The notes under the pieces: model-generated
What the model was told of the DNA's origin: nothing
Seen by the model: only the letters and a program-made list of their open reading frames with translations
Database searches by the model: none
Part shown: one piece after another, positions 8,945 through 45,283 of the stretch
Layout of the letters: each line of letters opens with the position of its first letter
Position numbering within the stretch: position 1 is the first letter of the stretch
Program-made: the position numbers and the translations under genes
Assembly: GCF_023955655.1 (NCBI RefSeq)
Contig: NZ_JAMXHT010000002.1
Span: forward strand, 186,001-250,000
Direction of reading: 5' to 3'
Length of the DNA: 64,000 nucleotides
From: Ralstonia soli
Lineage (GTDB): Bacteria; Pseudomonadota; Gammaproteobacteria; Burkholderiales; Burkholderiaceae

Positions 8945-9008
8945 GGGGAGGGAATACCCTGTCTTTCCATTCTTTGTCATCATTGCATAACATTATCATT
9001 GTGTTCTA
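8945..9008 (+). promoter_or_regulatory. Regulon element copy A (promoter of the first PhyH gene)
   Basis: First of six copies of the shared promoter element. It has the palindrome core AGGG-AATA-CCCT (8949-8960), TTGTCA at 8974-8979 and GTTCTA at 9003-9008, with a start codon 24 bases later. This copy differs from the others: the palindrome arms are short, the T-tract is weak, and palindrome centre to TTGTCA is 19.5 bp, about one helical turn less than the usual 28.5. The gene to its left (Rrf2-type) is divergent, so this palindrome cannot be the terminator of an upstream plus-strand gene. Confidence 0.7.
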
Positions 9009-9032
9009 CAAGAGACGAAGGTGAGAAACCCC

Positions 9033-9929
9033 ATGCTTGAGATGACAAGGCTCTCCGGCCAGGCAGCCACAGCCCAAGACGTGATCGCTGCGCTTGAGCG
9101 GGATGGCGGGGTGATTGTCGAAGACTTTCTTGCAAGCGAGACCCTCGATGGGCTGCGCAACGATCTGCTCCCGCTCATCGAGCGCCAAGCGGTGGGGCGG
9201 GACAGCTTCTCGGGTAACTGCACCCGGCGCCTGTCGCGCCTTTTCAGCCGGACCCGTCATTGCGCGGCGCTCGCCACGCATCCGCTCTACCTGCCGGTGG
9301 CCGAGCATTTTCTGGGTAAGCCGCGCGAAGTGTGGGTGGGCGACCGACGCGTGACGCTCACTGCGGGCGTGCGGATTGGGGTGACCCAGGCGATCCAGAT
9401 CGGCCCTGGCCAGGCCGCGCAGCCTTTGCATCGCGACGACACCGCCTTCATGTGGCGTCACCCCACCGCCGGCCGGGAAGGGCGCGTGCAGATCATTTGC
9501 GCGGTCTCGGATTTCACTGCGGAGAATGGCGGTACCCTCGTCATTCCGGGCAGCCATCTTTGGGACGACGATCGCAAGCCCGAACTATCGGAAGCGCAGC
9601 CGACCATCATGAAGGCCGGGTCGGCGCTGATCTTTCTCGGCTCGACGTTTCATGCGGGCGGCGCGAATACCACGCAAGGCGAGTACCGGACCGCCGTGGG
9701 CATCGCGCTCGACGCGGCGAACGTGCGCCAGGAAGAAAACATGTACCTGTCGATGACACCCGAAGACGTGGCGAGCTACCCCGAGCAGATCCAGCGGCTG
9801 CTGGGTTGGTCTGCCGGTGACAACCACATGGGCTGGGTCGAGGTGGATGGACAGATGATCGACCCGATCCATCTGCTGGGCGATCTGGACAGCGCAGCGG
9901 TCCGCGGCGTCGGCGCGCGTCGCGATTGA
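9033..9929 (+). CDS. Phytanoyl-CoA dioxygenase family (PhyH) oxygenase
   Basis: A 298-residue Fe(II)/2-oxoglutarate-dependent dioxygenase of the PhyH family, which hydroxylates aliphatic carbons. The iron ligands are visible as His133 and Asp135 (PLHRDDTAFMW) and His207 (GSTFHAGGANTT); Arg219 (EYRTAVGIAL) is placed to bind 2-oxoglutarate. The ATG at 9033 is preferred, with AAGGTGAG about seven bases upstream; a GTG at 9021 is an alternative. It is a single-gene unit directly behind element copy A and convergent with the next gene. A second PhyH protein at 31.5 kb carries the same element. The substrate is not known. Confidence 0.88.
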   Translation: MLEMTRLSGQAATAQDVIAALERDGGVIVEDFLASETLDGLRNDLLPLIERQAVGRDSFSGNCTRRLSRLFSRTRHCAALATHPLYLPVAEHFLGKPREVWVGDRRVTLTAGVRIGVTQAIQIGPGQAAQPLHRDDTAFMWRHPTAGREGRVQIICAVSDFTAENGGTLVIPGSHLWDDDRKPELSEAQPTIMKAGSALIFLGSTFHAGGANTTQGEYRTAVGIALDAANVRQEENMYLSMTPEDVASYPEQIQRLLGWSAGDNHMGWVEVDGQMIDPIHLLGDLDSAAVRGVGARRD

Positions 9930-9934
9930 TCTCC

Positions 9935-9965
9935 GGCGCGCGTACCGGCAAAAGCGGCGCGCGCC
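9935..9965. terminator. GC-rich hairpin between convergent genes
   Basis: GGCGCGCG (9935-9942) pairs perfectly with CGCGCGCC (9958-9965). It lies between the PhyH stop on the plus strand and the small membrane protein stop on the minus strand. There is no T-run on either side, so it would be a bidirectional, atypical terminator or a simple pause hairpin. Confidence 0.4.
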
Positions 9966-9968
9966 AAT

Positions 9969-10287: not shown

Positions 10288-11970
10288 TCAGCGCGCCGCC
10301 TTCGCGGCTTCCTGATCCTGAAGCAGACGCCACATGATCTTGCCGGTGCCCGACTTCGGCAGCGATTCGACAAACTCAACGATGCGCGGTGCCTTGTACG
10401 CAGCCATGTTCTCGCGCGCCCAGGTGATGATGTCGTCCTCGGTCACGGTTCCCGCGTGTCTTGCGTTACGCACAACGAATGCCTTCACCGTTTCGCCCCG
10501 GTGGGCGTCTCGCGCCGCAATCACACAGACTTCCTGAATCGCGGGGTGGTAATACATCATGGTCTCGACCTCCGCCGGCCACACTTTGTAGCCCGACGCG
10601 TTGATCATCCGCTTCAGGCGGTCGGCCATGAAGAAGTAGCCGTCCTCGTCCTTTCTTGCCAGATCGCCGGTGCGCAGGAAGCGCTTGCCATCGATCTCGA
10701 TGAAAGCGTCGTGCGTTGCCTGGGGATTGCGCCAGTACCCTTGCATCAGTTGCGGGCCGTGCGTCACGATCTCGCCAGTCTGGCCGACCGGCATTTCAAC
10801 AAGCGTCTCCGGATCAACGATCCGGGCGTCGACGTCGAACATGGGAATGCCGAGGCAACTCGACTTCGGCCGTTGCGGCGGGTTGATGTGCGTCGGGGCG
10901 ATGGTCTCCGACAAGCCGTAGCCTTCGATGTACTCGATGCCGGTCTTGTCCTGCAGCTTCCGTGCGACGGCGTCGGGCATCGCGGCGCCGCCACCGGCCA
11001 TGACGCGCAGGCTCGACAGATCGTAGTCGTCGAGCTGCGGGTTCGAGAGGAAATCGACGGCCATGGTCGAAATCGACCACCACTCCGTGACACGATGCTG
11101 CCCGATCGCGCGCGCGGCGGCGTCGCGGTCCCAGCGCGGTAGTACCACGACGGTTGCCCCGCTGAAGAGCGGCGCGTTCAGTCCGGTCTGCATGCCCGTC
11201 ACATGGAACAGCGGCAAGACGGACAGCATGATCGAGTCCTGTCTGCCGCCAAACCAATTGACCAATCCGACCGCCGTGCACATCACGCTGCGATGCGTGT
11301 GCATGCAGCCCTTCGGCTTGCCGGTCGTGCCGGAGGTGTACGGCATCACGCACAGGTCATCGGGGCCTGCGGTCAACGGGCCCGGCTCCAGGCGCGCGTC
11401 GAGCACGTCGGCCCAGTGTGCGATGCCATTGTTGCCTCCGTTGTCGACACGGCGCGGCGCACCGACAAATGCCGGCGGCGTAATGCATGACGGTCGCTTC
11501 AGGTAATCGCTGTAGGTCGCGACGATGACGTGCGCGAGCTGTCCATCGGCTTCGCCGGCGAGTGGCGCGATACGTTCGTACAGATCCTGTGCGACGAACG
11601 CGGTGCGTGCGCCGCTGTCTTCCACGTAGTGGCGCAGCTCGTCCGTCATGTTCATCGGATTGATGGGCACGACGACCGCATTGGCGCGCAGGATGCCGTA
11701 GTAGGCGATCATCCATTGCGGGCTGTTCTGCATGTAGAGCAGGACGCGATCGCCCGCCTTCACACCGCAGCATTGCTGCAGATAGCCGGCGACACGTTCG
11801 GTCTCGTCCTTGAATTCAGCGAACGTGACGGGCGTGTCATAGAAGACGATGAACGGCTTGTCGGGGTACCGGGCCGCCGACACCTCCGCGTTGTAGTACA
11901 GATTTGTCGCCGGCAACGTCAGATGCGTGGGCAGGTGTGCGGGCCAGTAGGGGGAATGTTCCTGGGTCAT
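10288..11970 (-). CDS. Acyl-CoA synthetase (AMP-forming, fatty-acid type)
   Basis: A 560-residue acyl-activating enzyme that makes acyl-CoA from a carboxylic acid, ATP and CoA. The P-loop-like motif is PYTSGTTGKPKGCMHTH. The middle motif IEGYGLSETIAPTHINPPQ, the hinge region FLRTGDLARKDEDGYFFMAD and RLKRMINASGYKVWPAEVE, and the C-terminal catalytic Lys context LPKSGTGKIMWRLL are all intact. The family is medium- to long-chain fatty-acid CoA ligase. It sits downstream of monooxygenase, hydrolase, ALDH and GMC genes, so it probably activates the acid they produce for beta-oxidation. Confidence 0.9.
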   Translation of the reverse strand: MTQEHSPYWPAHLPTHLTLPATNLYYNAEVSAARYPDKPFIVFYDTPVTFAEFKDETERVAGYLQQCCGVKAGDRVLLYMQNSPQWMIAYYGILRANAVVVPINPMNMTDELRHYVEDSGARTAFVAQDLYERIAPLAGEADGQLAHVIVATYSDYLKRPSCITPPAFVGAPRRVDNGGNNGIAHWADVLDARLEPGPLTAGPDDLCVMPYTSGTTGKPKGCMHTHRSVMCTAVGLVNWFGGRQDSIMLSVLPLFHVTGMQTGLNAPLFSGATVVVLPRWDRDAAARAIGQHRVTEWWSISTMAVDFLSNPQLDDYDLSSLRVMAGGGAAMPDAVARKLQDKTGIEYIEGYGLSETIAPTHINPPQRPKSSCLGIPMFDVDARIVDPETLVEMPVGQTGEIVTHGPQLMQGYWRNPQATHDAFIEIDGKRFLRTGDLARKDEDGYFFMADRLKRMINASGYKVWPAEVETMMYYHPAIQEVCVIAARDAHRGETVKAFVVRNARHAGTVTEDDIITWARENMAAYKAPRIVEFVESLPKSGTGKIMWRLLQDQEAAKAAR

Positions 11971-12768: not shown

Positions 12769-14427
12769 TCAGGTGGCCGCAGTTGCATGCGCGTTGGCCG
12801 CTTCGGCCTGTGCGCGAACCTGGGGCGTGACACGGCTGACGCCGCGAATCAGATCGACGGCTTTCTCGCCGATCATGATGGTGGGCGCGTTGGTGTTGCC
12901 GCCGATCAGTGTCGGCATGATCGACGCATCGACAATCCGCAGCCCCTCCAGGCCGTGCACGCGCAGTTGCGCATCGACCACAGCCATGTCGTCCTGGCCC
13001 ATGCGGCAGGTACCGACGGGGTGGTAGACGGTATCGGTGCGTTGCCGCAGCGTTGCGCGGATGTCGTCGTCGGTCTTCACGTGCGACGTGAAGAGGTCGC
13101 GCTTGGCCCATTTGGCGAGGGCGGGTGTCTGCATGAGACCACGCGTGATCTTGAAGCCGGCCACCATGTCCTCCACATCGCGCGGATCGGCGAAGAAGGC
13201 CGGGTCGATCACCGGTGCGGCGAGCGGATCGTTGCTGCGCAGCGTGACCGTACCGCGGCTGCGCGGGCGCAGCAGACACACGTGGCAGGAGAACCCGTGG
13301 CCCAGATGCATGCGGCGTGCGTGGTTGTCGACCAGCGCCACCACGAAATGCAACTGGATGTCGGGCGCCTCAAGATCAGGGCGCGTCTTCAGGAAGCCGC
13401 CACCTTCAGCAAAGTTCGTCGTCAACATGCCGCGCCGCTCGCTTCGGAAGCGCAGGATTTCGCTCAGCATGCGCACGCTGCCGCGCAGCGAGACGCCCAG
13501 CGTGTCGAGACTGCTTGTGCTGTAGCCGAAGACGAAGTCGGGGTGGTCCTGCAGATTGCGGCCCACGCCGGGCAGATGCTGCACGGTCTGGATGCCGACG
13601 CTTGCGAGCTCTTGCGCCGGGCCGACGCCCGACAACATCAGTAACTGCGGCGTCTGCAACGCGCCGGCGGCCAGCACGACTTCACGGCGCACACGCAGCG
13701 TGCGTACCGTGCCGTTCTGCAGCACCTCCACGCCCACGGCGCGCTTGCCTTCGAACAGGATGCGCCGGACCTGCGCGTGGGTTTCCACGGTGAGGTTGGC
13801 TCGTTGGCCGATGTGCGGGTGCAGGTACCCTCGCGCCGCGCTCCAGCGTTCGCCCTGCTTTTGCGTGACCTGGTAGATGCCGATCCCTTCCTGCTGCGCG
13901 CCGTTGAAATCGTCCGTGATCGGCAGGCCGGCCTGGCGGGCGGCTTCCAGATAGCGCGCCTGGAACGGGTTGTCGGTGCGCAAATCGCTGACATTGAGCG
14001 GGCCGTTGCGGCCGTGCCAGGCGTTGTCAAAGCGCTCGTTGTGCTCAGACAAACGGAAGTAGGGCAGCACATCGTCATACGACCAACCGCTGTTGCCGAG
14101 CGATGCCCAGTGGTCGTAGTCGCTGCGGTGGCCGCGAATGTAGACCATCGCGTTGATGGCGGAGGAGCCGCCCAGCGCCTTGCCGCGCGGCTGGTAGCCA
14201 ACGCGGCCGTTCAGCCCTGCTTGCGGCACGGTATCGAACGCCCAGTTGTTGAGCTTGGTCGGCATCATGGCGACCGCGCCCGCCGGCACCTTTACGACCA
14301 TGCTGTCGCCACGGCCGCCCGCCTCCAGCACGCAGACCGAGACGTTCGGATCTTCGGACAGACGGCCCGCAACCACGGAGCCGCCGGAGCCGCCACCAAC
14401 GATGATGTAATCGAACTGTTGACTCAT
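12769..14427 (-). CDS. GMC-family alcohol dehydrogenase (FAD)
   Basis: A 552-residue flavoprotein of the glucose-methanol-choline family, like AlkJ/choline dehydrogenase. The N-terminal FAD motif is YIIVGGGSGGSVVAGRLSED. GMC signature 1 appears as RGKALGGSSAINAMVYIRGH and signature 2 as AAGALQTPQLLMLSGVGPAQ; the C-terminal active site is TVYHPVGTCRMGQ with NTNAPTIMIGEKAVDLI. It probably oxidises an aliphatic alcohol to aldehyde, passing electrons to quinone. The start at 14427 (MSQQFDY) has GAGAGAA upstream; the ALDH stop lies 28 bp before it. Together they form an alcohol-to-acid oxidation pair. Confidence 0.9.
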   Translation of the reverse strand: MSQQFDYIIVGGGSGGSVVAGRLSEDPNVSVCVLEAGGRGDSMVVKVPAGAVAMMPTKLNNWAFDTVPQAGLNGRVGYQPRGKALGGSSAINAMVYIRGHRSDYDHWASLGNSGWSYDDVLPYFRLSEHNERFDNAWHGRNGPLNVSDLRTDNPFQARYLEAARQAGLPITDDFNGAQQEGIGIYQVTQKQGERWSAARGYLHPHIGQRANLTVETHAQVRRILFEGKRAVGVEVLQNGTVRTLRVRREVVLAAGALQTPQLLMLSGVGPAQELASVGIQTVQHLPGVGRNLQDHPDFVFGYSTSSLDTLGVSLRGSVRMLSEILRFRSERRGMLTTNFAEGGGFLKTRPDLEAPDIQLHFVVALVDNHARRMHLGHGFSCHVCLLRPRSRGTVTLRSNDPLAAPVIDPAFFADPRDVEDMVAGFKITRGLMQTPALAKWAKRDLFTSHVKTDDDIRATLRQRTDTVYHPVGTCRMGQDDMAVVDAQLRVHGLEGLRIVDASIMPTLIGGNTNAPTIMIGEKAVDLIRGVSRVTPQVRAQAEAANAHATAAT

Positions 14428-14455
14428 GATGTTTCTCTCGACAAGCAGTTGGCGG

Positions 14456-15877
14456 TCACGCAATGCGTGACAGCACGCGCAGCAACCAGTTGAAGGTGCG
14501 ACCGTAGGGCGGATGAAACAGCCCTGTGCCGTTCAGGCGGGCCTGGTGGAAGATCGGCTTGAGCTTGCTGAAGGTGTCGAAGCCCCATTTGCCGTGGTAA
14601 GCGCCCATGCCGCTCGGGCCCACGCCGCCAAACGGCTGGTCTTCCTGCACCAGATGCCACAGACAGTCGTTGACGGTGACGCCACCCGATACGGTCTCTT
14701 GCAGCGCGCGATGGCAGCGCGATGCTTCGTCGCCAAACCAGTACAGCGCGAGCGGGCGGGCGTTGCGCTGGATGTACGCCAGCGCGTCATCGAAGTTCGC
14801 GTATTCGACGATCGGCAGTATGGGCCCGAAGATTTCTTCGCGCATGAGCCGTGTGTCGGCTGGCGCGCCAATCACGAGCGTGGGCGGAAACTTGCGGGAC
14901 GCCGCGTTGAACGGCTCGCCCGCCGGGTTGACTTCGACCACGCGCGCGCCCGCTGCACGCGCTTCGCTGACCATCTCGGCCAGGCGCGCGCGATGGCGTT
15001 CACTGATGACGGCCGAGTAGTCCGGGTTGGAGACCAGTCGCGGATAGAGCTTCGCGATGGCCTGCACCAGATGCGAGGCGGTCTTCTCGGCGGTGCCGGC
15101 CGGGACCAGCAGATAGTCGGGCGCGACGCAGGTCTGTCCCGCATTCAGTAGCTTGCCGAACGCGATGCGCTGCGCCGCGACGGCCACATTGCACGACGCG
15201 TCGAGAATCGCCGGCGATTTGCCGCCGAGTTCCAGCGTGACCGGCGTCAGGTTGGCCGCGGCTGCTTGTGCCACCTGGTACCCCACCTGCGTCGACCCGG
15301 TGAAGAACAGATGATCGAACGGCAGGCTGGCAAAGGCCCTGCCGAGTTCGATATCGCCGACCGCGACATCGAGTTCGTCCGGGTTGAACATCTCGCGCGC
15401 CATCGAGGCGAGCAGATCGGACAGCCGGGGCGTGAGCTCCGACGGCTTGATCAAGACCCGGTTGCCGGCCGCAAGTGCAGCCAGCGCCGGCGCCAGCGAA
15501 AGCTGCAACGGATAGTTCCACGGAGAGATGATCCCCACCACGCCCAACGGCTGCGGCATGAGGCGGTTATGGCCGGGACGGAAATGCAGTGCGGTCGGCA
15601 CGCGGCGCGTGCGCATCCATTGCTTCAGATGCCGGCGCGCATGCCGGATGCCCGCGCGCACGATAAACACTTCAGTCAGGCGCGTTTCATGCACCGAGCG
15701 GCCCTGAAAATCGGCGTCGATGGCGCGCACGATGTCCGTCTCGTGCGTATCGATCCAGGCCGCCAGCCGGTCGAGGCGGGACAGCCGGGTCGCTAGCGTC
15801 GGGTAGGGGTCCAACGCAAACGCATGGCGCTGGCGTTCAAAGCTGGCGACAAGCTCGGTCGGGGAGCCTTGCAGCAT
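14456..15877 (-). CDS. Aldehyde dehydrogenase, coniferyl-aldehyde-dehydrogenase type
   Basis: A 473-residue NAD(P)-dependent aldehyde dehydrogenase. Visible motifs are IISPWNYPLQLSLAPALAAL, FTGSTQVGYQVA, the general base in VTLELGGKSPAI, the nucleophile Cys in NAGQTCVAPDYLL, REEIFGPILPIVEY and the C-terminal QEDQPFGGVGPSGMGAYHGK. The short length and HFRPGHNRLMPQPLG context place it near coniferyl aldehyde or long-chain aldehyde dehydrogenases (class III type) rather than betaine aldehyde types. The C-terminus has a hydrophobic tail (FNWLLRVLSRIA). It is adjacent to the GMC gene and likely oxidises that product to a fatty acid. Confidence 0.9.
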   Translation of the reverse strand: MLQGSPTELVASFERQRHAFALDPYPTLATRLSRLDRLAAWIDTHETDIVRAIDADFQGRSVHETRLTEVFIVRAGIRHARRHLKQWMRTRRVPTALHFRPGHNRLMPQPLGVVGIISPWNYPLQLSLAPALAALAAGNRVLIKPSELTPRLSDLLASMAREMFNPDELDVAVGDIELGRAFASLPFDHLFFTGSTQVGYQVAQAAAANLTPVTLELGGKSPAILDASCNVAVAAQRIAFGKLLNAGQTCVAPDYLLVPAGTAEKTASHLVQAIAKLYPRLVSNPDYSAVISERHRARLAEMVSEARAAGARVVEVNPAGEPFNAASRKFPPTLVIGAPADTRLMREEIFGPILPIVEYANFDDALAYIQRNARPLALYWFGDEASRCHRALQETVSGGVTVNDCLWHLVQEDQPFGGVGPSGMGAYHGKWGFDTFSKLKPIFHQARLNGTGLFHPPYGRTFNWLLRVLSRIA

Positions 15878-15922
15878 GGTGTCTCCTATGGACGAGCGTC
15901 GTGTATCGCGCGCTCGGTTTTG

Positions 15923-15948
15923 ACGCCGTTGCGGAACGGCGTGTTTTT
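15923..15948 (+). terminator. Hairpin with T-run (plus orientation)
   Basis: ACGCCGTT (15923-15930) and AACGGCGT (15935-15942) form a perfect eight-base stem with loop GCGG, followed by GTTTTTG. It has the form of an intrinsic terminator for plus-strand transcription, although both neighbouring genes are on the minus strand. It lies in the 144-bp gap between hydrolase and ALDH genes and may stop antisense transcripts. A separate ten-base inverted repeat (GGCCTGCAGC at 15964-15973 and GCTGCAGGCC at 15998-16007) lies next to it. Confidence 0.5.
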
Positions 15949-16021
15949 GTTGTGTTCATGCATGGCCTGCAGCTCGGCGTGGCCGCCGATCCTTGTCGCT
16001 GCAGGCCAAAAAAAATGCAGA

Positions 16022-16978: not shown

Positions 16979-16980
16979 GA

Positions 16981-19978: not shown

Positions 19979-20050
19979 GGCAGGGAAATCCCTGCCTTTT
20001 TCTTTGCGTCAATCTTTGTCACGATTGCCTAATATTGGTGTTTCGTTCTA
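19979..20050 (+). promoter_or_regulatory. Regulon element copy B (promoter of MFS-NMO-crotonase unit)
   Basis: The stem GGCAGGG (19979-19985), loop AAAT and CCCTGCC (19990-19996) are followed by a T-rich tract, TTGTCA at 20016-20021 and GTTCTA at 20045-20050. Compared with copy F, the stem base pairs change together (GGC/GCC here, GAC/GTC there), so symmetry is kept. Palindrome centre to TTGTCA is 28.5 bp. The first start codon is 134 bases downstream; the leader between shows no gene. The palindrome could also end transcription of the PucR gene 76 bp upstream. Confidence 0.75.
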
Positions 20051-32350: not shown

Positions 32351-32373
32351 GCAAACACAGAGAGGTACACACC

Positions 32374-32949: not shown

Positions 32950-32996
32950 CACAGTCAACATGACCGGTGTGTGAAGGCGGAGTCGGAAGGAGAACC

Positions 32997-34364: not shown

Positions 34365-34440
34365 AGATAGCCGCATGGGCGGGGGCCGGCGTGCGCTTGA
34401 GGAGGGGCGCGCCGGCATTCAACGGGATGGAGGAAGGGCG

Positions 34441-36276: not shown

Positions 36277-36339
36277 CGGGTGACATGGCTGGAAGCGGCG
36301 CACGTTGTGCGCCGCCGGAATACTTGAAGGGGTAGTGTC

Positions 36340-38700
36340 GTGTTGAATCGTCTTGTTGCGGGGCTGGAAAAAGCCTTCTTCGGCCACCGCGCAATCGTGC
36401 TTGTGGTGATCGGTTTGTTTACTGCCGTGATGGCCGTCTTCGCCGTACAGCTGCGCATGGATGCGGGCTTCGAGAAGCAGATGCCAATTGGCCATGAGTA
36501 CATCCAAACGTTCCAGAAGTACCGGAATGACTTGCTGGGCGCGAACCGCATCACCGTGGTCGTGCGCGCGAAGAAGGGTTCCATCTGGACGCCCGAAGGG
36601 CTGACGCGCCTGTACAACGTAACGCAGGCGGTGACGTACCTGCCGAATGTTGACCGGATCGGGGTCCGCTCGCTGTGGACGCCGAACTCGTTCGTCAATG
36701 AGATCACCGAAGAAGGCTTCCGCGCCGAGCCCATTATTTCGGGCTCGATCACGCCGGATCAACTGACGCCCGAAGTCGTCTCGCAGATTCGCCGCGCGAC
36801 CACGTTGGGTGGCTACGTCGGCACGCTGGTCTCGCACAACGAAGACAGCGCGATGATCACCGCCGAGCTGAACGAACGCGACAGCAGCGGCAAGGTGCTC
36901 GACTACGTGGCGTTCAACCACACGCTTGAAGAGAAGATCCGCAAGCCGTTCGAAGATGCCGGCTACGAAATCCAGATCATCGGTTTCGCCAAGCAGATCG
37001 GTGACATTGCCGACGGCGCGACCGCTGTGCTGGGCTTCTGCGCGATCGCATTGCTGCTGACAGCACTCGCTGTGTACTGGTACTGCCACTCGGTGCGCTT
37101 CACGGTACTGCTGATCGTCTGCTCGCTGACCTCGCTGGTTTGGCAGTTTGGCACGTTGAAGCTGCTGGGCTTTGGCTTGGACCCGCTGGCCGTGCTGGTG
37201 CCGTTCCTGGTGTTTGCCATTGGCGTGTCGCACGGCGTGCAGCAGGTCAACTTCATCGTGCGTGAGATCGCACGCGGGAACAACTCGTTCGATGCAGCAC
37301 GCCATAGCTTCACCGGCCTGCTGATCCCCGGCGTGCTGGCGCTTGTGACGGCTTTCGTCTCGTTCATCACGCTGCTGCTGATCCCGATTCCGATGGTGCG
37401 TGAGCTGGCAATCACGGCTTCGCTCGGTGTGGGCTACAAGATCATCACGAACCTGATCCTGCTGCCGGTGGCCGCATCGTGCTTCAACTTCACCAAGGAA
37501 TACGCGGAAAGCGCGCTCAAGCGCAGCGGTCGGCGCGCGGTGCTGTTGCGTCCGCTGGCCAAGGTTGCCCAACCGAAATATGCAGGAGCCACGGTCGCCC
37601 TGACTTGCGTGGTCTTTGCGCTGGCGGCGTGGCAGAGCCGTGACCGCGTGATCGGCACCCTGCAGCCGGGCGCGCCGGAGTTGCGTGAGGAAGCGCGCTT
37701 CAACCGTGATGCAACGTCCATCGCGGGCAACTACGACATGGGCCTGGACTGGCTGTCGGTGGCGATCGAGTCGACCGGCAAGGCGTGCGACAACCCGGCC
37801 GTCGGCCTGTATGAGAACGAATTCACCGCGGCCATGCGCACCGAGCCGGGTGTGGTGTCGGTCCAGTCGTACTCGTCCATGCTGCGCACCTATAACGCGG
37901 GCTACAACGAGGACTATCCAAAGATGAACGTCGTGCCGATCGACCCAGACAACTACGGGGCGGTGTCGGTGGATGTGGCGCGCCTCAAGGGCTTCATGAC
38001 GGCCGATTGCAGTATGACTGCCGTTCATCTGTACCTAGCCGACCACAAGGCGACGACCATCAACCGGGTTCTGGATGACATCAAGCACTACCGCACTTCG
38101 CATCCGTTCCCCGGCATCAACATCCGCCTGGCGGCTGGCAATGCGGGCGTGCTCGCTGCCACCAATGACGAAGTCGAGAGAAGCGAACTGCCGATGATGC
38201 TGTACGTGTACGCAGCCATCGTGATCCTCGTGTTCCTGGCCTACCGCGACTGGCGCTCGATGCTGGCCTGCTGCGTGCCGCTCACGGTGGCGACCTTCAT
38301 CGGCTACTGGTTTATGAAGGAACTCAAGATCGGCCTGACGGTGGCCACACTGCCGGTCATGGTGCTGGCGGTGGGGATCGGCGTGGACTACGCGCTTTAC
38401 ATCTACAACCGGCTGCAGCGGCACCTGGCCGAAGGCGATCCGATTCTCAAGGCCATGGAGCGTGCGTTGGAGTTCGAGTGCGTGGCGACGATCTTTACGG
38501 CGATCACGCTGGCGGTTGGAGTGGTGACGTGGAGCTTCTCGGCGCTCAAGTTCCAGGCCGACATGGGCAAGCTGCTGGCGTTCATGTTCATCGTCAACCT
38601 GGTGATGGCCATGACGGCACTGCCTGCGCTGGCCTCGGTGCTGGAGCGCTGGTTTCCGCGTCGCAAACCGGCACGGGTGCCGGGCCTGCTCAGCCACTGA
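36340..38700 (+). CDS. MMPL/RND-family transporter
   Basis: A 786-residue inner-membrane protein of the RND superfamily with two repeats of six helices and large periplasmic loops. Helix 1 is IVLVVIGLFTAVMAVFAVQL; helices 2-6 begin TAVLGFCAIALLLTALAVYW; the second half has LPMMLYVYAAIVILVFLAY and VMVLAVGIGVDYALYIYNRL, with the Asp-Tyr pair typical of MMPL proteins in the proton relay. The start is GTG 36340 with GAAGGGG upstream. Co-encoded with DUF1329, DUF1302 and YCF48 proteins, it probably moves a hydrophobic substrate across the envelope. Direction is not known. Confidence 0.9.
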   Translation: MLNRLVAGLEKAFFGHRAIVLVVIGLFTAVMAVFAVQLRMDAGFEKQMPIGHEYIQTFQKYRNDLLGANRITVVVRAKKGSIWTPEGLTRLYNVTQAVTYLPNVDRIGVRSLWTPNSFVNEITEEGFRAEPIISGSITPDQLTPEVVSQIRRATTLGGYVGTLVSHNEDSAMITAELNERDSSGKVLDYVAFNHTLEEKIRKPFEDAGYEIQIIGFAKQIGDIADGATAVLGFCAIALLLTALAVYWYCHSVRFTVLLIVCSLTSLVWQFGTLKLLGFGLDPLAVLVPFLVFAIGVSHGVQQVNFIVREIARGNNSFDAARHSFTGLLIPGVLALVTAFVSFITLLLIPIPMVRELAITASLGVGYKIITNLILLPVAASCFNFTKEYAESALKRSGRRAVLLRPLAKVAQPKYAGATVALTCVVFALAAWQSRDRVIGTLQPGAPELREEARFNRDATSIAGNYDMGLDWLSVAIESTGKACDNPAVGLYENEFTAAMRTEPGVVSVQSYSSMLRTYNAGYNEDYPKMNVVPIDPDNYGAVSVDVARLKGFMTADCSMTAVHLYLADHKATTINRVLDDIKHYRTSHPFPGINIRLAAGNAGVLAATNDEVERSELPMMLYVYAAIVILVFLAYRDWRSMLACCVPLTVATFIGYWFMKELKIGLTVATLPVMVLAVGIGVDYALYIYNRLQRHLAEGDPILKAMERALEFECVATIFTAITLAVGVVTWSFSALKFQADMGKLLAFMFIVNLVMAMTALPALASVLERWFPRRKPARVPGLLSH

Positions 38701-38715
38701 TCCGGAGACACAGAC

Positions 38716-39681
38716 ATGATCAAGACTCTTGTGGCCGGCATTGCGCTGTGCGTGGCCTCAACGGCGTTCGCCCAATCCAAAGGAACGGTCGCCACCTGGA
38801 GCGCCAAGCCGGCGCATGCGTGGGCCGCGCCGACGCACATGATGCTGCTGGACGCGACGCACGCCGGCAAACGCATCGTCGCCGTGGGTGAGAGCGGCAT
38901 CGTTCTGCTCTCCGACGACGAAGGCAAGACCTACCGGCAAGCCCGCAGCGTGCCGGTCTCGGCCACGCTGTCCGCTGTCAACTTCATCGATGACATGCGT
39001 GGATGGGTGGTCGGGCAGTGGGGCGTGATTCTCGCGACCACCGATGGCGGAGAAACCTGGACCAAGCAGCGCATGGACACGGCGGTCGATCAGCCGTTGT
39101 TCTCGGTGCTCTTTACGAACGACCACGATGGGATTGCCGTTGGCCTGTGGTCATTGATGCTGCAGACGCATGACGGCGGCAAGACGTGGACCCGCACCAC
39201 GCTGCCCAAACCGCCCAACGGCGGCAAGGCGGACCGCAACCTGTACCACGTGTTTGCGGATGGCAAGGGCGCGCTCTACATCTCCGCAGAACAAGGGACC
39301 GTACTCAAGTCGACCGACGGCGGCGCCAACTGGGATTACCTCGCCACGGGCGGCAAGGGCTCGTTGTGGTCGGGTGTGGCAATGCCTGACGGCCGGGTCG
39401 TGGTGGGCGGGTTGCTCGGCAGCCTGTTCCAAAGCAGCGACGGCGGGGCGAACTGGCAACCGTTGACGGCCGAGACCAAAAGCTCGATCACCAATCTTGT
39501 GGCAACCGGCAAGGGGCTGATGGCGGTGGGGCTCGATGGGCTGGTGCTGAAGCAGCGTGAAGACGGGGCGCCGTTCGATATCGCGCAACGCCCGGACCGT
39601 GCTGCGCTGACCGCTGCCGTGATCGATGCCGGCGGCAAGCCGATTCTGTTTTCAAAAGAGGGAGTGCTGGCCGAACGCTAA
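38716..39681 (+). CDS. YCF48/BNR-repeat exported beta-propeller
   Basis: A 321-residue protein with a signal peptide (TLVAGIALCVASTAFAQ) and repeated BNR/YCF48 motifs: VLLSDDEGKTYRQ, ILATTDGGETWTKQ, LMLQTHDGGKTWTRT, VLKSTDGGANWDYL and LFQSSDGGANWQPL, giving a beta-propeller in the periplasm or outer membrane. It lies 15 bp after the MMPL gene. In related clusters such proteins accompany the DUF1302/DUF1329/MMPL set and probably act in assembly or substrate binding. The photosystem II assembly role of plant YCF48 does not apply. Confidence 0.88.
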   Translation: MIKTLVAGIALCVASTAFAQSKGTVATWSAKPAHAWAAPTHMMLLDATHAGKRIVAVGESGIVLLSDDEGKTYRQARSVPVSATLSAVNFIDDMRGWVVGQWGVILATTDGGETWTKQRMDTAVDQPLFSVLFTNDHDGIAVGLWSLMLQTHDGGKTWTRTTLPKPPNGGKADRNLYHVFADGKGALYISAEQGTVLKSTDGGANWDYLATGGKGSLWSGVAMPDGRVVVGGLLGSLFQSSDGGANWQPLTAETKSSITNLVATGKGLMAVGLDGLVLKQREDGAPFDIAQRPDRAALTAAVIDAGGKPILFSKEGVLAER

Positions 39682-39714
39682 GCCGGGCTAGTCGTCGTTA
39701 GAGGAACAAAAAAC

Positions 39715-41220
39715 ATGACAAACGAAAAAGGGGCATCCAAGATGGCCCCGGAGAGTGGACCGGCAGTACCAAGCCGGCGCCGGCTCCTTGGTGTTGCTGC
39801 AGCAGCGGGCGCGGCGTCGCTGGCGGCAGGGGCAGCATCGCGCGCGGTGGCTGCTACGGCCTCGGCGCAGCCTGACGTGCTGGACGTCGCGATCATCGGC
39901 GCAGGGCTGGCGGGGCTCACCGCCGCGCGCGATCTGAAGCGCGCGGGGTGCGAATCATTCGTCGTGCTGGAGGCGCGTAACCGCGTTGGCGGCCGCACAT
40001 ACAACCACGACATCGGAAACGGTGTCGTTTCTGAAGCGGGTGGCCAGTGGATCGGCCCCGGGCAGACCGCAATTTCCGATCTGGCGCGCGAGCTTGAAGT
40101 CGACACCTTCCCGACCTACTACGCCGGCAAGACCGTGATCCTGGCAGGCGATACCAAGGTGGCGCAGGATCTGCAAGGCGGCAGCTCCGGTGACGAGAAG
40201 ATTGCGGCCAAACTCAACGAACTGGCGCGCGGTGTGCCATCGGCTGCACCCTGGAAAGCCAAGAACGCGGCGGAGCTCGACAAGCTGTCGTATGGCGAGT
40301 GGCTGCGGCAGCAAGGCGTGCAGTATCAGGACGGATACTTTCTTGCCATTGCGGCGAAGCTGTCGCTCGGCGGAGCGCCCGCGCAACTGGGTCTCTTGCA
40401 ATACCTGCAGGCGATTGCCAGTGCCGAGAACAGTGTCGAAAGGCTCGAATCCATCAAGGGCGGCGCGCAGGAAACGCGCTTCGTCGGCGGCTCGCAAATC
40501 CTCAGCATCAAGATGGCGAAGGACCTGGGCGACAAGGTCAAGCTGTCTCGCCCGGTGCGCAAGATTGTCGGCTGGAACCGCGACGTCGTCGAGTTGCACA
40601 CCGATCAGGGCATCGTGCGCGCACGCCACGTGATCGTGGCGCTCAACCCGGCGCTCTGCAACCAGATCGCCTTTGACCCGCCGCTGCCCGCAGGGCGTTC
40701 GCAACTACAGCAGCGTTGGCCCGCGAATGCGCCAATGCGCAAGACCGTGCATGTCTACGACAAACCGTTTTGGCGGGAAGACGGCAACAGCGGGCAGATC
40801 TTTCAGGTCGGTGGTCCGGTGTTCATGTCCTATGACAACTCGCCGCCTGACGGCTCCATCGGCGTGCTCAGCGCGTTTGTAGCACCCGGTGCATTGCCCT
40901 CGAACCCGAAAGCCGCCGAGCAGGCGCTGACGGCCATCTACGTGCAGGCGTTTGGCGAGAAGGCACGGCATCCGGCGCAGTTTCATGACTTCGACTGGGG
41001 CCGCGTTGATCCGTGGACATTGCAGTGCATCCATCCGATTCCGCCAGGCTTCTGGACAAAGTGGGGCGAGTTCCTGCGCCCCGCCGTGGGGCGGTTGATC
41101 TGGTCGGGCACCGAGACTGCCGACATCTGGCCCGGCGCGATGGACGGCGCTGTGCGCTCCGGACATCGGGCGGCCCTGCAGGCGCTGGGTGACATGGCGC
41201 AGCGCGCTCGGGAGGTCTGA
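39715..41220 (+). CDS. Tat-exported flavin amine oxidase/dehydrogenase 1
   Basis: A 501-residue flavoprotein of the monoamine oxidase family. The N-terminus has a twin-arginine signal (SRRRLLGVAAAAGAASLAAG, residues 20-39), so the enzyme is folded and sent to the periplasm. FAD motifs are VAIIGAGLAGLTAARDLKRA (about 58-77) and LEARNRVGGRTYNHD; the C-terminus is LIWSGTETADIWPGAMDGAV, without the Cys that attaches FAD covalently in mammalian MAO. Arrangement and signal resemble NicA2 of Pseudomonas putida, an amine dehydrogenase using cytochrome c. Here the next gene, one base after the stop, encodes a dihaem cytochrome c, its likely electron acceptor. The amine substrate is unknown. Confidence 0.88.
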   Translation: MTNEKGASKMAPESGPAVPSRRRLLGVAAAAGAASLAAGAASRAVAATASAQPDVLDVAIIGAGLAGLTAARDLKRAGCESFVVLEARNRVGGRTYNHDIGNGVVSEAGGQWIGPGQTAISDLARELEVDTFPTYYAGKTVILAGDTKVAQDLQGGSSGDEKIAAKLNELARGVPSAAPWKAKNAAELDKLSYGEWLRQQGVQYQDGYFLAIAAKLSLGGAPAQLGLLQYLQAIASAENSVERLESIKGGAQETRFVGGSQILSIKMAKDLGDKVKLSRPVRKIVGWNRDVVELHTDQGIVRARHVIVALNPALCNQIAFDPPLPAGRSQLQQRWPANAPMRKTVHVYDKPFWREDGNSGQIFQVGGPVFMSYDNSPPDGSIGVLSAFVAPGALPSNPKAAEQALTAIYVQAFGEKARHPAQFHDFDWGRVDPWTLQCIHPIPPGFWTKWGEFLRPAVGRLIWSGTETADIWPGAMDGAVRSGHRAALQALGDMAQRAREV

Positions 41221-41883
41221 ATGAAACGAGCAAAGATTCTTGGTATCACTGTGGCAGTTGCGCTGGCCGCCGCGATCGGCGCGGGCGCGCTTTACGGGCG
41301 CGATATCGTGGACGGCATGCGCTTCGAGAAGGCGATGCACGAGATTGGCGAAGCGGAGAAAACCGGCCCCTGGCCGCAGCCGCACGAGACGTGCTTCGTT
41401 TGCCATGGGCCGCGTGGCCAATCGCTGAACGCGTGGTATCCGGCTCTGACCGGTCAGCCGAAGACGTACATCGCTGCCCAATTGCACGCGTTCGCCAGCG
41501 ACCATCGTTCCAATCCCTACATGGGGCCGCTCGCCAAAGACCTCACCAATGCGCAGATCGATGCATTGGCTGACTACTTCGCCCAGCAGGCGCCCGCACG
41601 CAACGAAGAGGTCACAGCCGACGCAACGCTCGAAAAGCGCGGGCTGGCATTGGTGCAGGCCCGGAGTTGCCAAGCCTGCCACGGCGAGAAACTGATGGGC
41701 AAGGATCAGGCGCCGCGCCTGGCGGGGCAAGGCGAAGACTATCTCGCCAAGCAGCTCGCCGACTTCAAGGCCGGCGCACGCAAGGACCCGACGGGCGCCA
41801 TGAACGGGATTGCCGCAACGCTGTCGAGCGACGATGTCCCGGCGGTCGCACGCTATCTCGCCGGTATGTCGCCAGGACGATAA
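41221..41883 (+). CDS. Dihaem cytochrome c, partner of amine oxidase 1
   Basis: A 220-residue periplasmic cytochrome with an N-terminal hydrophobic segment (GITVAVALAAAIGAGALYG) that is an anchor or signal. Two haem sites are present: CFVCH (58-62) and CQACH (150-154), each followed by a possible axial Met (NPYMGP, Met101; TGAMNG, Met194). The two halves are tandem class I c-type domains of the c4 type. The start codon begins immediately after the amine oxidase stop, so the two are coupled. It probably accepts electrons from the flavoenzyme and feeds the terminal oxidase. Confidence 0.9.
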   Translation: MKRAKILGITVAVALAAAIGAGALYGRDIVDGMRFEKAMHEIGEAEKTGPWPQPHETCFVCHGPRGQSLNAWYPALTGQPKTYIAAQLHAFASDHRSNPYMGPLAKDLTNAQIDALADYFAQQAPARNEEVTADATLEKRGLALVQARSCQACHGEKLMGKDQAPRLAGQGEDYLAKQLADFKAGARKDPTGAMNGIAATLSSDDVPAVARYLAGMSPGR

Positions 41884-42018: not shown

Positions 42019-42049
42019 ATGCCGTGTTCGCACGGCATTCTTTTTTTTT
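42019..42049 (+). terminator. Intrinsic terminator of the DUF1329-to-cytochrome unit
   Basis: ATGCCGTG (42019-42026) and CACGGCAT (42031-42038) form a perfect stem with loop TTCG, followed by TC and nine Ts. It is a textbook terminator 136 bp after the cytochrome stop. Element copy E begins five bases later with its own hairpin, so that second palindrome is not needed for termination. Confidence 0.85.
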
Positions 42050-42053: not shown

Positions 42054-42125
42054 GACAGGGTATTCCCCGTCTTTTTTTTCCTACCAATGATTGTCATCAT
42101 GACCTAACTTTATATACGTGTTCTA
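42054..42125 (+). promoter_or_regulatory. Regulon element copy E (promoter of FDPYT-DAO unit)
   Basis: GACAGGG (42054-42060), TATT, CCCCGTC (42065-42071), then T8, TTGTCA at 42091-42096, CCTAACTTT in the spacer and GTTCTA at 42120-42125. Spacing is standard (28.5 and 29 bp). A 260-bp leader without a recognised gene separates it from the small FDPYT protein gene. Confidence 0.78.
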
Positions 42126-42385
42126 AGAGATGGCGATCGAAGTCTCCAGTCTCTTGCTCCCGTATCTGAAGGGAGCCCGCAAGAGGCAGGCGATTTTTCT
42201 GGCGCTCAGTCGAACGCGGCTCAGAGGTTCGGGCCTGTTTCTGCCCATCCTCCTGGAGCAACGCAGGTTGACCAGCGCGGCGTGAAGCAGCGTGTGCAGC
42301 CAGAACGCCCAAACGGGAGAACGGGAGCAATGCCCCAGGCCCTGCCTGAGGCGATGTCGAAAATCAGTTGAAGAAGGAGTGCGTC

Positions 42386-42658
42386 ATGCAACTCAAGCAA
42401 CTTGGTATTGCCTCGGTGATTGTGGCTGGCTGTCTGGTGGCAGCGGGTCCATGGGCACAACCCGATCGCATTGGCACGTATGAAATGGCCGCGCAGGATT
42501 CGCAGGCGGGCGCTGGTAACGGTGATGCCGGCTCAACGGAGGGCGCCCCCCGTTTCGACCCATACACGCAGGGCCACCGCACAGGGCGTTTCGACCCTTA
42601 CACGGAAGGCATGGGTCGCCCCGTCGTCGACCTGATCTGGATTCAGGGGAATACGTGA
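42386..42658 (+). CDS. Small exported protein with RFDPYT repeats
   Basis: A 90-residue protein with a signal peptide (GIASVIVAGCLVAAGPWA, cut near residue 24) and a short, Gly/Asp-rich mature part. RFDPYT occurs twice, at 56-61 and 68-73 (RFDPYTQG and RFDPYTEG), 12 residues apart, followed by a hydrophobic tail (VVDLIWIQG). Start 42386 has AAGGAG six bases upstream. The family is not recognised. It is the first gene behind element copy E, ahead of a DAO-type oxidase, so it is expressed with the amine pathway. It may bind a metal or peptide partner or be processed; function is unknown. Confidence 0.7.
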   Translation: MQLKQLGIASVIVAGCLVAAGPWAQPDRIGTYEMAAQDSQAGAGNGDAGSTEGAPRFDPYTQGHRTGRFDPYTEGMGRPVVDLIWIQGNT

Positions 42659-42863
42659 GTGGTAGCCCTGCACCCAGGGGCCATCCGCGCATCACTGCCG
42701 GGCATCGGATAACGCTACGAGCAGGTCACAACTACGCGACGAAGCCGGCGAGCGACAGGTGCAGTGCGCGCACTGCAATTCAGGAAAACGGAGGTGGGCT
42801 GCAGGGCGCTGAAGAGGCAGCGTTCCCCCTCCCTAGTTTGAGCAAGCATGGAAAGAGGCACGC

Positions 42864-44336
42864 ATGAGTGAACGAGCAAATACAAACTGGGGCGATGAGC
42901 TGCGTTACGCCGGGGGTGTTAGGGATATTCAAGTCGCCGGTGCGACCACAACAGCAAAGGCTGCACCGCCCGTTGCGCGTGCGGGTAAGGAGGCGCAGAT
43001 CCGCACGGCGCTGGAGGCCTATCGCCCCTTTGGTGGGTGGCTCGACAAGCCGAAGGATCTGCAACCACGGCTTGAAGGCGACGTGAGCGCCGATGTCGTC
43101 ATCGTTGGCGCAGGCTTTGCGGGCTTGTCTACTGCACTGGAATTGACCGCCGCCGGTGCAAAGGTCGTCGTCCTAGAGCGCGAGTTTGCCGGCTTTGGCG
43201 CAAGCGGCCGCAACGCGGGCTATCTGGCTGGCGGGCAGGGGCTTGAGTATGAGCTGTTCCTCAAGCGTGTGGGGCGCGAGCAGGCGAAAAAGATCGTCAG
43301 CTTCTACGACGCGGGCGTGAGCTACGTTGAACGCAAGCTCGGCGAATACGGCATCGATTGCGATTACAACGCCTCCGGGATCATCCGCGCGGGGGTGCAT
43401 CCGTCCCAGGAAGAGAAGGTGCGCAAGAGCATGCGGATTGCCGCCGAGCTTGGTCACCAATCCCAGTTTCTGGATGGCCGCGAGATGCGCGCACGCGGCA
43501 TTCCGCCGGCGTTCCTGTTTGGCGCCTATTCGGCCAATGGCGGCACGCTGGACCCTGGAAAATACGTGCTGGGCCTGCGGCGCGCAGCGATCCGAGCTGG
43601 CGTGAAGCTCTACGAAAACACGCCACTGCTGTCTTACACCGAAGGCCCGATCGTGAAGGTGAACACCGAGCGCGGCAGCGTCAGTGCCCCGGTTCTGGTG
43701 TTCGCCACCAATGCCTATACGCCGCAGATTGGCCTGCTTGGCGACAAGGTGATGCCGTTCCGGGTCTCGGCAATCGAAACCGAACCCCTCTCCGCAGCGC
43801 AGTTGGCAGCGCTGGGCTGGGCGCGGCGCGAAGGGATCGTGACGGTGCACTGGACGATGGAGAGCCATCGGCTGACGGCCCGCAACTCGCTCGTGTTGAC
43901 GACCAAGCGGATCCACTATGTGTATGGATCGCATACACCCCATGTGCCGGACAACGATGCCTATCGCGAACTGGTTGTGGCGCTGCACGATCGCTTCCCC
44001 GCGTTGAAGGACTTGGCCATCCGGGCGTGCTGGAGTGGCTACGTCAGCATGGCTGGCGATGCGCTGCCCGTCGTCGGGGAGACCGGCGCGCAGAAGAACA
44101 TCCTCTATACCGCAGGGTGCTCGGGGCATGGCGTCGGTACGCAGTCGATGATGGGCCATCTGCTTGCCGAGCGGATTCGCGGCAGGGAGCATCCGCTGCT
44201 TTCGGCGTTGCACCACAAGACGCCTTCAACGCTGCCTGAACCGCTGCGATGGTGCGCGGTCAACGGGCTGATCGGCCTGACCAACACACTGGATGAGCAG
44301 CTGAACCGCAAGGTACGTCGTTCGGCCGCCGCTTAG
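42864..44336 (+). CDS. FAD-dependent oxidoreductase, DAO/PuuB type
   Basis: A 490-residue cytosolic flavoenzyme (no signal). After a 75-residue extension comes VSADVVIVGAGFAGLSTALE and GFGASGRNAGYLAGGQG, as in gamma-glutamylputrescine oxidase and sarcosine/glycine oxidase types. The C-terminal SGYVSMAGDALPVVGETG and YTAGCSGHGVGTQSMMGHLL are typical. It likely oxidises a secondary or N-substituted amine. It lies behind the small FDPYT protein gene and before the TetR gene, on the same strand. Confidence 0.85.
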   Translation: MSERANTNWGDELRYAGGVRDIQVAGATTTAKAAPPVARAGKEAQIRTALEAYRPFGGWLDKPKDLQPRLEGDVSADVVIVGAGFAGLSTALELTAAGAKVVVLEREFAGFGASGRNAGYLAGGQGLEYELFLKRVGREQAKKIVSFYDAGVSYVERKLGEYGIDCDYNASGIIRAGVHPSQEEKVRKSMRIAAELGHQSQFLDGREMRARGIPPAFLFGAYSANGGTLDPGKYVLGLRRAAIRAGVKLYENTPLLSYTEGPIVKVNTERGSVSAPVLVFATNAYTPQIGLLGDKVMPFRVSAIETEPLSAAQLAALGWARREGIVTVHWTMESHRLTARNSLVLTTKRIHYVYGSHTPHVPDNDAYRELVVALHDRFPALKDLAIRACWSGYVSMAGDALPVVGETGAQKNILYTAGCSGHGVGTQSMMGHLLAERIRGREHPLLSALHHKTPSTLPEPLRWCAVNGLIGLTNTLDEQLNRKVRRSAAA

Positions 44337-44484
44337 TCAATCGGCAACAGGTCGAATCTGACGACCACACGCAGTGGCTACAGACGTCTTGTGGTACGAG
44401 AGCCGGAGGGGGCTTCAGCGATATACTGTAGCTCCCTCGACCAACCGCTGATGTGATGACCTTGGTGAGGCGATATATCCAATC

Positions 44485-45180
44485 ATGACAGAGACGACAA
44501 TACTCCCTGCTGAGCAACGCCGCCCCCGAAAACGGCGCGCGTCTGCTGCCCCCGAAGGAGCAAGCCCAGAGACCTTGCGGGCTCAGGGCGTGCGTACGCG
44601 CAACGCAATCGTTCGCGTGGCAAGAAAGCTCCTGCTTGAGGGTGGGCCGCTGGAATTCTCGCTGCGCGCGGTGGCCCTTCGGGCCGGGATCAGTGTCAGC
44701 AATCTCCAGTACTACTTTCCGAGCCGGCCGGCAGTATTGCGCGCTGTGATGGAACCCGAGATGGGTATGTATCTGGACGCGCTCAAGCATGCGCTTGAGA
44801 GCAGCGAGTCGCCCCTCGAAGCGCATGAAGCGATCCTGAAGCGAGCGATCAGCGACGCGAGAAATACCAAGTACGTGGCGTTGTGGCGGCACTTTCTCTC
44901 GTTCGCGTCTACCGATCCGGAGTGCGCGAAACTGATCGATGGGTGGTACGACACGCTGACACAAGAGTTGGCAAGGTTGATCCGCACGATCAATCCAAAG
45001 TACGACGTGGCCGAGAGTCTGCACGTTGCCGCGCTACTGATCGCGATGGCCGACGGGTTGACGCTTCAGCTCGGCACAATGGGCCGCAAGCATAGCTATC
45101 TGGACGGGCTCGAGGAGCGATTCCTCTCCTTCGCCAATGCCGTCGTGCTGGGAAAGGTGCCGGGTCCGAGCAAGCGTTAA
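44485..45180 (+). CDS. TetR/AcrR-family regulator
   Basis: A 231-residue regulator with an N-terminal arginine-rich tail. The TetR HTH reads RTRNAIVRVARKLLLEGGPL then LRAVALRAGISVSNLQYYFP (about 38-80). The C-terminal ligand domain has a BetI-like profile (LWRHFLSFASTDPECAKLID). It lies between the DAO gene and element copy F. It is a candidate regulator for the amine units, as TetR dimers recognise palindromes such as that in the six-copy element, but this is inference. Confidence 0.88.
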   Translation: MTETTILPAEQRRPRKRRASAAPEGASPETLRAQGVRTRNAIVRVARKLLLEGGPLEFSLRAVALRAGISVSNLQYYFPSRPAVLRAVMEPEMGMYLDALKHALESSESPLEAHEAILKRAISDARNTKYVALWRHFLSFASTDPECAKLIDGWYDTLTQELARLIRTINPKYDVAESLHVAALLIAMADGLTLQLGTMGRKHSYLDGLEERFLSFANAVVLGKVPGPSKR

Positions 45181-45211
45181 TCGTCAGACCGCCGCTACGG
45201 CAACCAACAAA

Positions 45212-45283
45212 GACAGGGGAATACCCTGTCTTTTTTTTCTCCCTGTATTTGGTACATTGTCCTATGTTTGGTAACGCGTTCTA
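45212..45283 (+). promoter_or_regulatory. Regulon element copy F (promoter of second amine oxidase unit)
   Basis: The strongest palindrome: GACAGGG (45212-45218), GAATA, CCCTGTC (45224-45230), then T8. The -35-like box is TTGGTA (45249-45254), CCTATGTTTGG lies in the spacer and GTTCTA is at 45278-45283. Box to GTTCTA is 29 bp; centre to box is 27.5 bp. The first start codon lies 152 bases downstream. Confidence 0.75.

Follow-up and report, generated by a model that had tools for sequence, protein, structure and literature searches.

A tandem-repeat element shared by six operons of a catabolic cluster in Ralstonia soli and a TetR-family protein as its candidate regulator

QdoR of Bacillus subtilis is, according to the available part of PMC8481877, a local TetR-family repressor whose targets include its own gene; it has two operators on the qdoI promoter and is released by a flavonoid ligand. 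SphR of Pseudomonas aeruginosa belongs to the AraC family and recognises half-sites TGNCCSNNRNNSNCC separated by 6-8 bp (PMC3900636, in excerpt). For Burkholderia sp. 383, the portion of PMC6449761 at hand predicts that operons with DUF1302, DUF1329, COG1033 and COG4447 genes and PhyH operons form a regulon of the sigma-54 activator AphR. Here, we describe an element which occurs six times (copies A to F, Table 1) in a stretch of 64,000 nt of the Ralstonia soli genome (contig NZ_JAMXHT010000002.1, positions 186,001 to 250,000; the whole stretch is called the window). The anatomy, locality, conservation and orientation of this element, as read from the sequence, and its co-occurrence with a TetR gene of the same cluster make it rather probable that the element serves as a common promoter-operator cassette for a local regulon, which this TetR protein would repress at tandem boxes.

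The preliminary description of the window had listed six copies of a promoter element with fixed internal spacing, and all six were located at these positions, on the forward strand and within 36 kb. The spacings largely hold with small corrections. At 29 bp before GTTCTA, the box is TTGTCA in four copies (A, B, D and E), while C has TTATCA and F has TTGGTA. The tetramer located 12 bp ahead of GTTCTA is CTAA in four copies (B, C, D and E) and CTAT in F; as a correction, it is ATAA in A. The distance from the palindrome centre to the box is 28.5 bp in B, C and D; depending on the reading of an extra C or G, it is 28.0-28.5 bp in E and 27.5-28.0 bp in F. In copy A it is 19.5 bp, which places the palindrome about one helical turn nearer the core, and the T-tract is mostly missing there. 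The spacer TTGCCTAACTTTGG, given as conserved, is exact in copy C only.

A search of the 5.73-Mb genome at E ≤ 10 with a sequence-only profile trained on the six window copies (R1) gave exactly six matches, all in the window and on the forward strand, with the weakest at 1.6e-14. These matches are the training copies, and independent support comes from further copies in 26 other genomes. With a profile from 37 diverse copies (R2), only the same six were found below E 0.05 in this genome, followed by three weaker matches (two of the palindromes, read on the opposite strand, and one stray site). A palindrome-only pattern with ≤ 3 mismatches detected just half of the six copies, together with one stray site at three mismatches; as the other three copies were missed, its power to show absence is low. 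The window gave no match to Rfam at gathering thresholds.

In a sample of 299 genomes of the family, drawn evenly from a larger group, the element was present at E ≤ 0.001 in 27 genomes from 7 of 25 genera, with three to six clustered copies each. Among the 16 genomes shown of its own genus, only that of the window carries the element, which suggests transfer or loss. The 16S sequence of this genome is 96.4% identical to that of a Cupriavidus and about 92.5% to that of Burkholderia, by which its organism is probably Ralstonia-like. An order-wide search matched 4 of 399 genomes, namely the window's own and three with partial matches to palindrome and T-tract (model positions 3-32, 4-49 and 3-50), which were taken as chance or terminators. 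In the relatives, the operons behind the element are amine oxidase - cytochrome c - membrane protein; PhyH - RidA - DUF1329 - DUF1302 - MMPL - YCF48 - amine oxidase - cytochrome c; DUF5938 - CoA ligase - thiolase - FAD oxidoreductase - TetR; and acyl-CoA dehydrogenase. The genes behind A and B were not led by an element in the 30 cluster groups of relatives. The earlier view of a local catabolic regulon is borne out by the clustering before equivalent operons, and the profile scans of the own genome showed no dispersal of the motif. Several copies in one region might also be expected of an interspersed mobile or REP-like repeat without a role in transcription. This is hardly credible, since the whole genome holds just six copies, each co-oriented with its downstream gene, and equivalent positions across genera already contradict it.

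For the analysis of its anatomy, 114 element matches were reduced to 54 by removing those ≥ 85% identical and to 50 by dropping core scores under 20; these 50 non-redundant Burkholderiaceae copies underlie the following counts. From TTTGTCA to GTTCTA, the core of 36 bp is a tandem direct repeat of the 17-mer TTTGkyAwnnTGwyCTA with a period of 19 bp (boxes TTtgtcATnaTgaCCTA and tTTggtAntgTgTtCTA). The block of box, spacer and GTTCTA recurs as had been described, but its nature as a tandem 17-bp direct repeat had been overlooked. Autocorrelation of the core profile gave 19 bp as the single positive offset, and the direct-repeat score was reached by none of 2000 column permutations. A second, weak periodicity of 9-10 bp is also seen in the repeats. 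Inverted repeats within the core scored at best no higher than chance (450 of 1000 permutations); on this basis, the dyads GTCATnATGAC and TTACC-N7-GGTAA, which resemble operators by eye, were rejected. The inverted repeat of the upstream GGG-N4-CCC palindrome, on the other hand, proved significant (0 of 1000 permutations). The palindrome forms a module separate from the core, at fixed spacing: its centre lies 26-28 bp from the core in 47 copies, 25 and 36 bp in one each and 18 bp in copy A. GGG-N4/5-CCC was found in 46 of the 50 copies, a count whose scan range does not reach the palindrome that is present in copy A. A T-tract lies about 11-18 bp upstream of the core. Strong conservation ends with the final A of GTTCTA, beyond which there is a weak stretch rich in A.

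The TetR gene, which tracks the element in the family genomes sampled, had escaped the preliminary description. TetR was the sole transcription-factor family among the 13 gene families common to at least 20 cluster groups. At E ≤ 1e-40, it was present in exactly the 27 element-bearing genomes of the family sample, and the element was found in none of the 272 others. By tblastn, TetR was detected in 28 of 30 cluster groups; the remaining two (G250a and G277b) are contigs of genomes with TetR on another contig. Many TetR-family regulators are among the known-structure relatives of the window protein. The stretch SNLQYYFP, which we take to be the recognition helix by the layout of the TetR family, is invariant in 12 TetR sequences from Burkholderiaceae and the more distant family discussed below. 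In genome contigs, 55 loci with TetR relatives were collected and an element match (E ≤ 0.05) was found in 51; in 35 of these, tabulated by hand, the element begins 31-131 bp past TetR on the same strand. In the window, element F begins about 32 bp past the TetR gene. A decayed element was also seen after a second, isolated TetR copy in genome G267 (L104, 9614-9684).

Since linkage alone would account for some of this co-occurrence, exporter loci without TetR were examined as a contrast. The MMPL exporter (E ≤ 1e-250) was present in 59 of the 299 genomes, 27 with TetR and element and 32 with neither at these thresholds. Ten TetR-less exporter loci (MMPL 72-93%) were fetched from a larger set; nine had no element match and one (L178) a weak relic of 15.7 bits, while none had an orthologous TetR and two held a relative of 30-31%. 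Two of the ten are paralogues in the window's own genome (L172 and L173; C12:526719-529076 and C12:329626-331983), further MMPL export modules 92% and 72% identical, without element or TetR. Of ten matches in a plasmid collection, six exporter loci were fetched: three (C. necator C39, B. arboris pla_1 and Caballeronia pNK84) carry both TetR and elements, and the other three (B. arboris pla_2, P. sprentiae and Azoarcus) carry neither.

More distant relatives separate the repeat from the palindrome. Eight TetR loci, with TetR 45-52% identical, were obtained from Pseudoduganella, Massilia, Janthinobacterium, Duganella and Rugamonas, which we take to be Oxalobacteraceae, and all eight have element matches. 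Sixteen copies were found and one near-duplicate was dropped. The remaining 15 show the same repeat (10.67 of 17 identities versus 5.51 when shuffled, 0 of 2000), with boxes TTTGTntntTTGtCCTA and TTTgGTAntaTGtcCTA, and keep the T-tract (T fraction 0.68 versus 0.16 further upstream, p = 0.001), and GGG-N4/5-CCC was found in none of them. Thus, TetR is associated with the repeat rather than with the palindrome, and this favours the repeat as the TetR site. One Pseudoduganella copy (L153, ~10725-10800) has an apparent third 17-bp box upstream (TTTGTACGTTTGTCCTA).

These copies also bear on the possibility that palindrome and T-tract are an intrinsic terminator only, which insulates each operon and was copied along with the promoter. 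Many copies have GC stems followed by T runs, strong hairpins lie about 30 bp past the TetR stop, pairing at stem pair 6 is in excess (31 of 46 versus 23.9), and several TetR-adjacent Oxalobacteraceae copies carry unrelated terminator-like hairpins. When 49 of the 50 copies were typed by the direction of the upstream gene, however, stems were equally strong in the 13 copies with a divergent gene and the 30 co-directional ones with a gap under 400 bp (p = 0.53). Furthermore, the outer pairs of the stem are often disrupted but GGG...CCC is conserved, and copy E has a separate terminator-like hairpin of its own immediately upstream (42019-42038). As the Oxalobacteraceae keep the T-tract without the GGG-CCC stem, palindrome plus T-tract is not simply a terminator, and we consider the terminator-only explanation unlikely. 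A terminator role for some copies is compatible with a TetR-repressed cassette, given the pairing at stem pair 6 and the strong TetR-adjacent stems.

For the promoter, several placements were compared. TTGTCA had been proposed as -35 with the start just after GTTCTA, and this fares well in relatives and weakly in the window: at 17 bp from TTGTCA, TAnnnT is present in 20 of 50 Burkholderiaceae copies (two of T1, A2 and T6 in 44 of 50) and in 13 of 15 Oxalobacteraceae copies (TATTAT, TAGGAT and similar), and the -35 box has a mean of 4.04 of 6 matches to TTGACA in the 50 copies. The window hexamers at this distance are CATTGT, TGTTTC, TGATTT, TAGTGT, ATACGT and TAACGC, i.e., one TAnnnT of six, and four with two of T1, A2 and T6. 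The reading ATGACC/17 bp/TCTAnn was dropped (TAnnnT in 0 of 50). A reading with 19 bp and TAnnnn keeps T1 and A2, but has TAnnnT in just 6 of 50 and 2 of 15 copies. In copy A, there are only 24 nt from CTA to ATG, with GAAGG starting 8 nt after CTA (35 or 36 nt in other copies); therefore, the start should be close to CTA and the promoter should overlap the repeat. TTGTCA as -35, 17 bp and a start just after GTTCTA appears to be the best of the placements compared. It would put the -35 into box 1, the -10 into box 2, the T-tract near -54 to -47 and the centre of the palindrome near -63 (near -54 in A).

A palindrome in this position would fit a class I activator, as the preliminary description had in mind; in full, such a model has TTGTCA as -35, the activator as main control and no TetR repression at the core. 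TAnnnT in the relatives, the significance of the palindrome as an inverted repeat, its fixed spacing (27 ± 1 bp in 47 of 50, about one turn shorter in A), the T-tract between palindrome and core, and hairpin strength independent of upstream gene direction would all agree with such an activator. It leaves the 17-bp direct repeat and the link to TetR unexplained, however, and no activator gene was common to at least 20 clusters, nor was a conserved palindrome-binding gene found. GGG-N4/5-CCC is absent from all 15 Oxalobacteraceae copies, and since these related loci keep TetR and repeat without it, the palindrome is not the core of the system. We regard it as quite unlikely that a class I activator is the main control.

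The 17-bp repeats could instead be bound by a regulator of another family. Direct repeats with a secondary period of 9-10 bp would suit AraC-like proteins, with two DNA contacts per subunit, or OmpR-type response regulators; an AraC-family gene lies in the window at 25496-26560, and a histidine kinase and a response regulator flank some Burkholderia clusters. The AraC gene, however, has just partial matches of 24-32% in the clusters of relatives, and the kinase is present in 16 and the response regulator in 14 of 30 cluster groups. Class II activation would need a promoter further downstream, which the 24-nt leader of copy A rules out. Such a regulator is improbable.

In the TetR-repressed cassette that we favour, the -35 (TTGTCA) would lie in the first 17-bp box and the -10, which is TAnnnT in relatives, in the second; transcription would start right after GTTCTA. 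The T-tract would probably act as an UP-element-like site for alpha-CTD. The palindrome GGGAATACCC, seen only in Burkholderia, Cupriavidus and close kin, is probably an added site for an activator or a second regulator. TetR would most likely bind the tandem boxes and block RNA polymerase at every operon, including its own, until a compound of the pathway, either substrate or intermediate and probably an amine or the product of its oxidation, binds and releases it. As the boxes would cover both -35 and -10, we infer that repression with ligand release is the likeliest mode of action.

Several points weigh against this proposal. The operator of a TetR protein is usually palindromic, and no significant palindrome was detected in the core. 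Because element and TetR move together in a single cluster, part of their co-occurrence is linkage. Four of the 55 TetR loci have no element match (L113, L124, L138 and L167); TetR of L167 is only 26% identical, and a single weak core-like site is present in L124. The models that detected the Oxalobacteraceae copies had been trained on copies from Burkholderiaceae. The -10 hexamers of the window itself are poor, and in Burkholderiaceae the TA at the end of GTTCTA does about equally well as -10 (mean matches 3.34 versus 2.82). The lack of a conserved gene for a palindrome-binding protein counts here as well. On plasmid pNK84 of Caballeronia sp. NK8, the TetR orthologue is split over two frames while the elements are retained (L169, 29640-30114), which fits recent loss but also independence of the two.

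The target operons are given in Table 1. That every copy precedes a catabolic unit on the forward strand is broadly right, with two qualifications: copy B first meets a gene for an MFS-type transporter, and 739 nt including a thiolase stub intervene between copy E and the genes for FAD oxidoreductase and TetR. In the relatives, the E-type element would drive genes for DUF5938, CoA ligase and thiolase, which are missing in the window. The gap after E (42126-42863) retains a remnant of 27 amino acids of the thiolase C-terminus (42766-42846, 70%), and the region ~42350-42655 is 61% like an open reading frame of the C. necator C39 cluster. Each of the two amine oxidase genes, one monoamine/putrescine-oxidase-like and the other a second flavin amine oxidase, is followed by a cytochrome c gene. 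Together with the RidA protein, these pairs suggest that the substrate of the pathway is probably an amine. For the oxidase at 45436, the nearest known structures are monoamine and putrescine oxidases. The protein encoded at 47627-48322 appears to be of membrane type (several hydrophobic helices by eye), has no Pfam match and is present in 28 of 30 cluster groups, so it is possibly a new family tied to the pathway. A PucR-type regulator (18652-19902) and a block of monooxygenase, hydrolase and GMC genes (12769-18507) recur close to the clusters of G192, G251 and G297. In some of the Burkholderia clusters, there are, in addition, a histidine kinase/response regulator pair and another TetR-like gene (L064, 8479-10340 and 13577-14302, and equivalents).

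Table 1. Copies of the element in the window, their parts, and the genes predicted to be controlled by them
Feature	Position	Strand	Decamer	Direct-repeat core	Description
Element A	8945-9008	+	8950-8959 (GGGAATACCC)	8973-9008	Upstream of PhyH gene at 9033
Element B	19979-20050	+	19983-19992	20015-20050	Upstream of MFS-type transporter - NMO - enoyl-CoA hydratase
Element C	31370-31441	+	31374-31383	31406-31441	Upstream of PhyH - RidA
Element D	32874-32949	+	32882-32891	32914-32949	Upstream of DUF1329 - DUF1302 - MMPL - YCF48 - amine oxidase - cytochrome c
Element E	42054-42125	+	42058-42067 (GGGTATTCCC)	42090-42125	Upstream of FAD oxidoreductase - TetR
Element F	45212-45283	+	45217-45226	45248-45283	Upstream of amine oxidase - cytochrome c - membrane protein
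PhyH-family dioxygenase gene	9033-9929	+			Putative target of A
MFS-type transporter (below Pfam cut-off; first gene, at 20185), nitronate-monooxygenase-family (NMO) and enoyl-CoA hydratase genes	20185-23394	+			Putative target of B
PhyH dioxygenase and RidA-family genes	31508-32781	+			Putative target of C; conserved in relatives
DUF1329, DUF1302, MMPL, YCF48, flavin amine oxidase and cytochrome c genes	32967-41883	+			Putative target of D
DAO-family FAD oxidoreductase gene	42864-44336	+			E operon, with TetR
TetR-family regulator gene	44485-45180	+			TetR_N plus BetI-type C-terminal domain (TetR_C_6); proposed binder of the direct-repeat core
Monoamine/putrescine-oxidase-like gene, cytochrome c gene and gene for a conserved membrane protein without Pfam match	45436-48322	+			Putative target of F

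Literature searches by motif, by combinations of gene families and for TetR together with direct repeats returned no description in which we recognised the element; they covered open-licence papers, in which motifs are poorly text-searchable. As far as the available portion of PMC6449761 shows, the gene content of the target operons overlaps with that of the predicted AphR regulon, but the motif GCTTGATCATTTGATCATGC given there had no match in the window at ≤ 3 mismatches. Sigma-54-like sites were not enriched in the window either (11 matches versus 18.7 expected), and control by AphR and sigma-54 was rejected. The Castellaniella AmeD monoterpene efflux module (DUF1302/DUF1329/MMPL) has envelope export genes related by name to those found here, according to the part of PMC6394551 consulted. 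The SphR system, in the excerpt of PMC3900636, resembles the present one in having direct-repeat half-sites upstream of a few promoters for a porin-like protein, an oxidase and a cytochrome c, and the oxidase-cytochrome pairs had suggested sphingosine catabolism. The box described here differs from TGNCCSNNRNNSNCC, however, the conserved regulator is of TetR and not of AraC type, and the AraC gene of the window is not conserved in the clusters. Sphingosine catabolism under SphR was rejected on these grounds; given the nearest structures of the oxidase at 45436, 'amine' was kept and 'sphingosine' dropped.

An uncharacterised catabolic and export cluster, present in 27 of 299 genomes of the family, thereby gains a testable regulator and a precise candidate operator, and the ligand of TetR, once found, would reveal the substrate of the cluster. 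Core only, core plus palindrome, relics and TetR-less paralogues form a natural series for watching an operator cassette gain parts and spread. Tentatively, we suggest that a TetR-family regulator acts on a non-palindromic tandem repeat over -35 and -10, that a separate GGGAATACCC site for a second protein was added in one branch, and that the cassette was copied to recruit operons such as those behind A and B, although we hold this combination to be doubtful as yet. Of the described systems, QdoR, as far as the accessible text of PMC8481877 goes, shares with the present locus a local TetR-family regulator gene and paired operator boxes, which are predicted here. It differs in that, here, one strict direct repeat with a 19-bp period, overlapping the putative promoter, lies at each of six promoters of one cluster. 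Paired operators for a TetR repressor are known, whereas a tandem-repeat operator cassette of a local TetR-type regulon, as predicted from these sequences, would be unusual.

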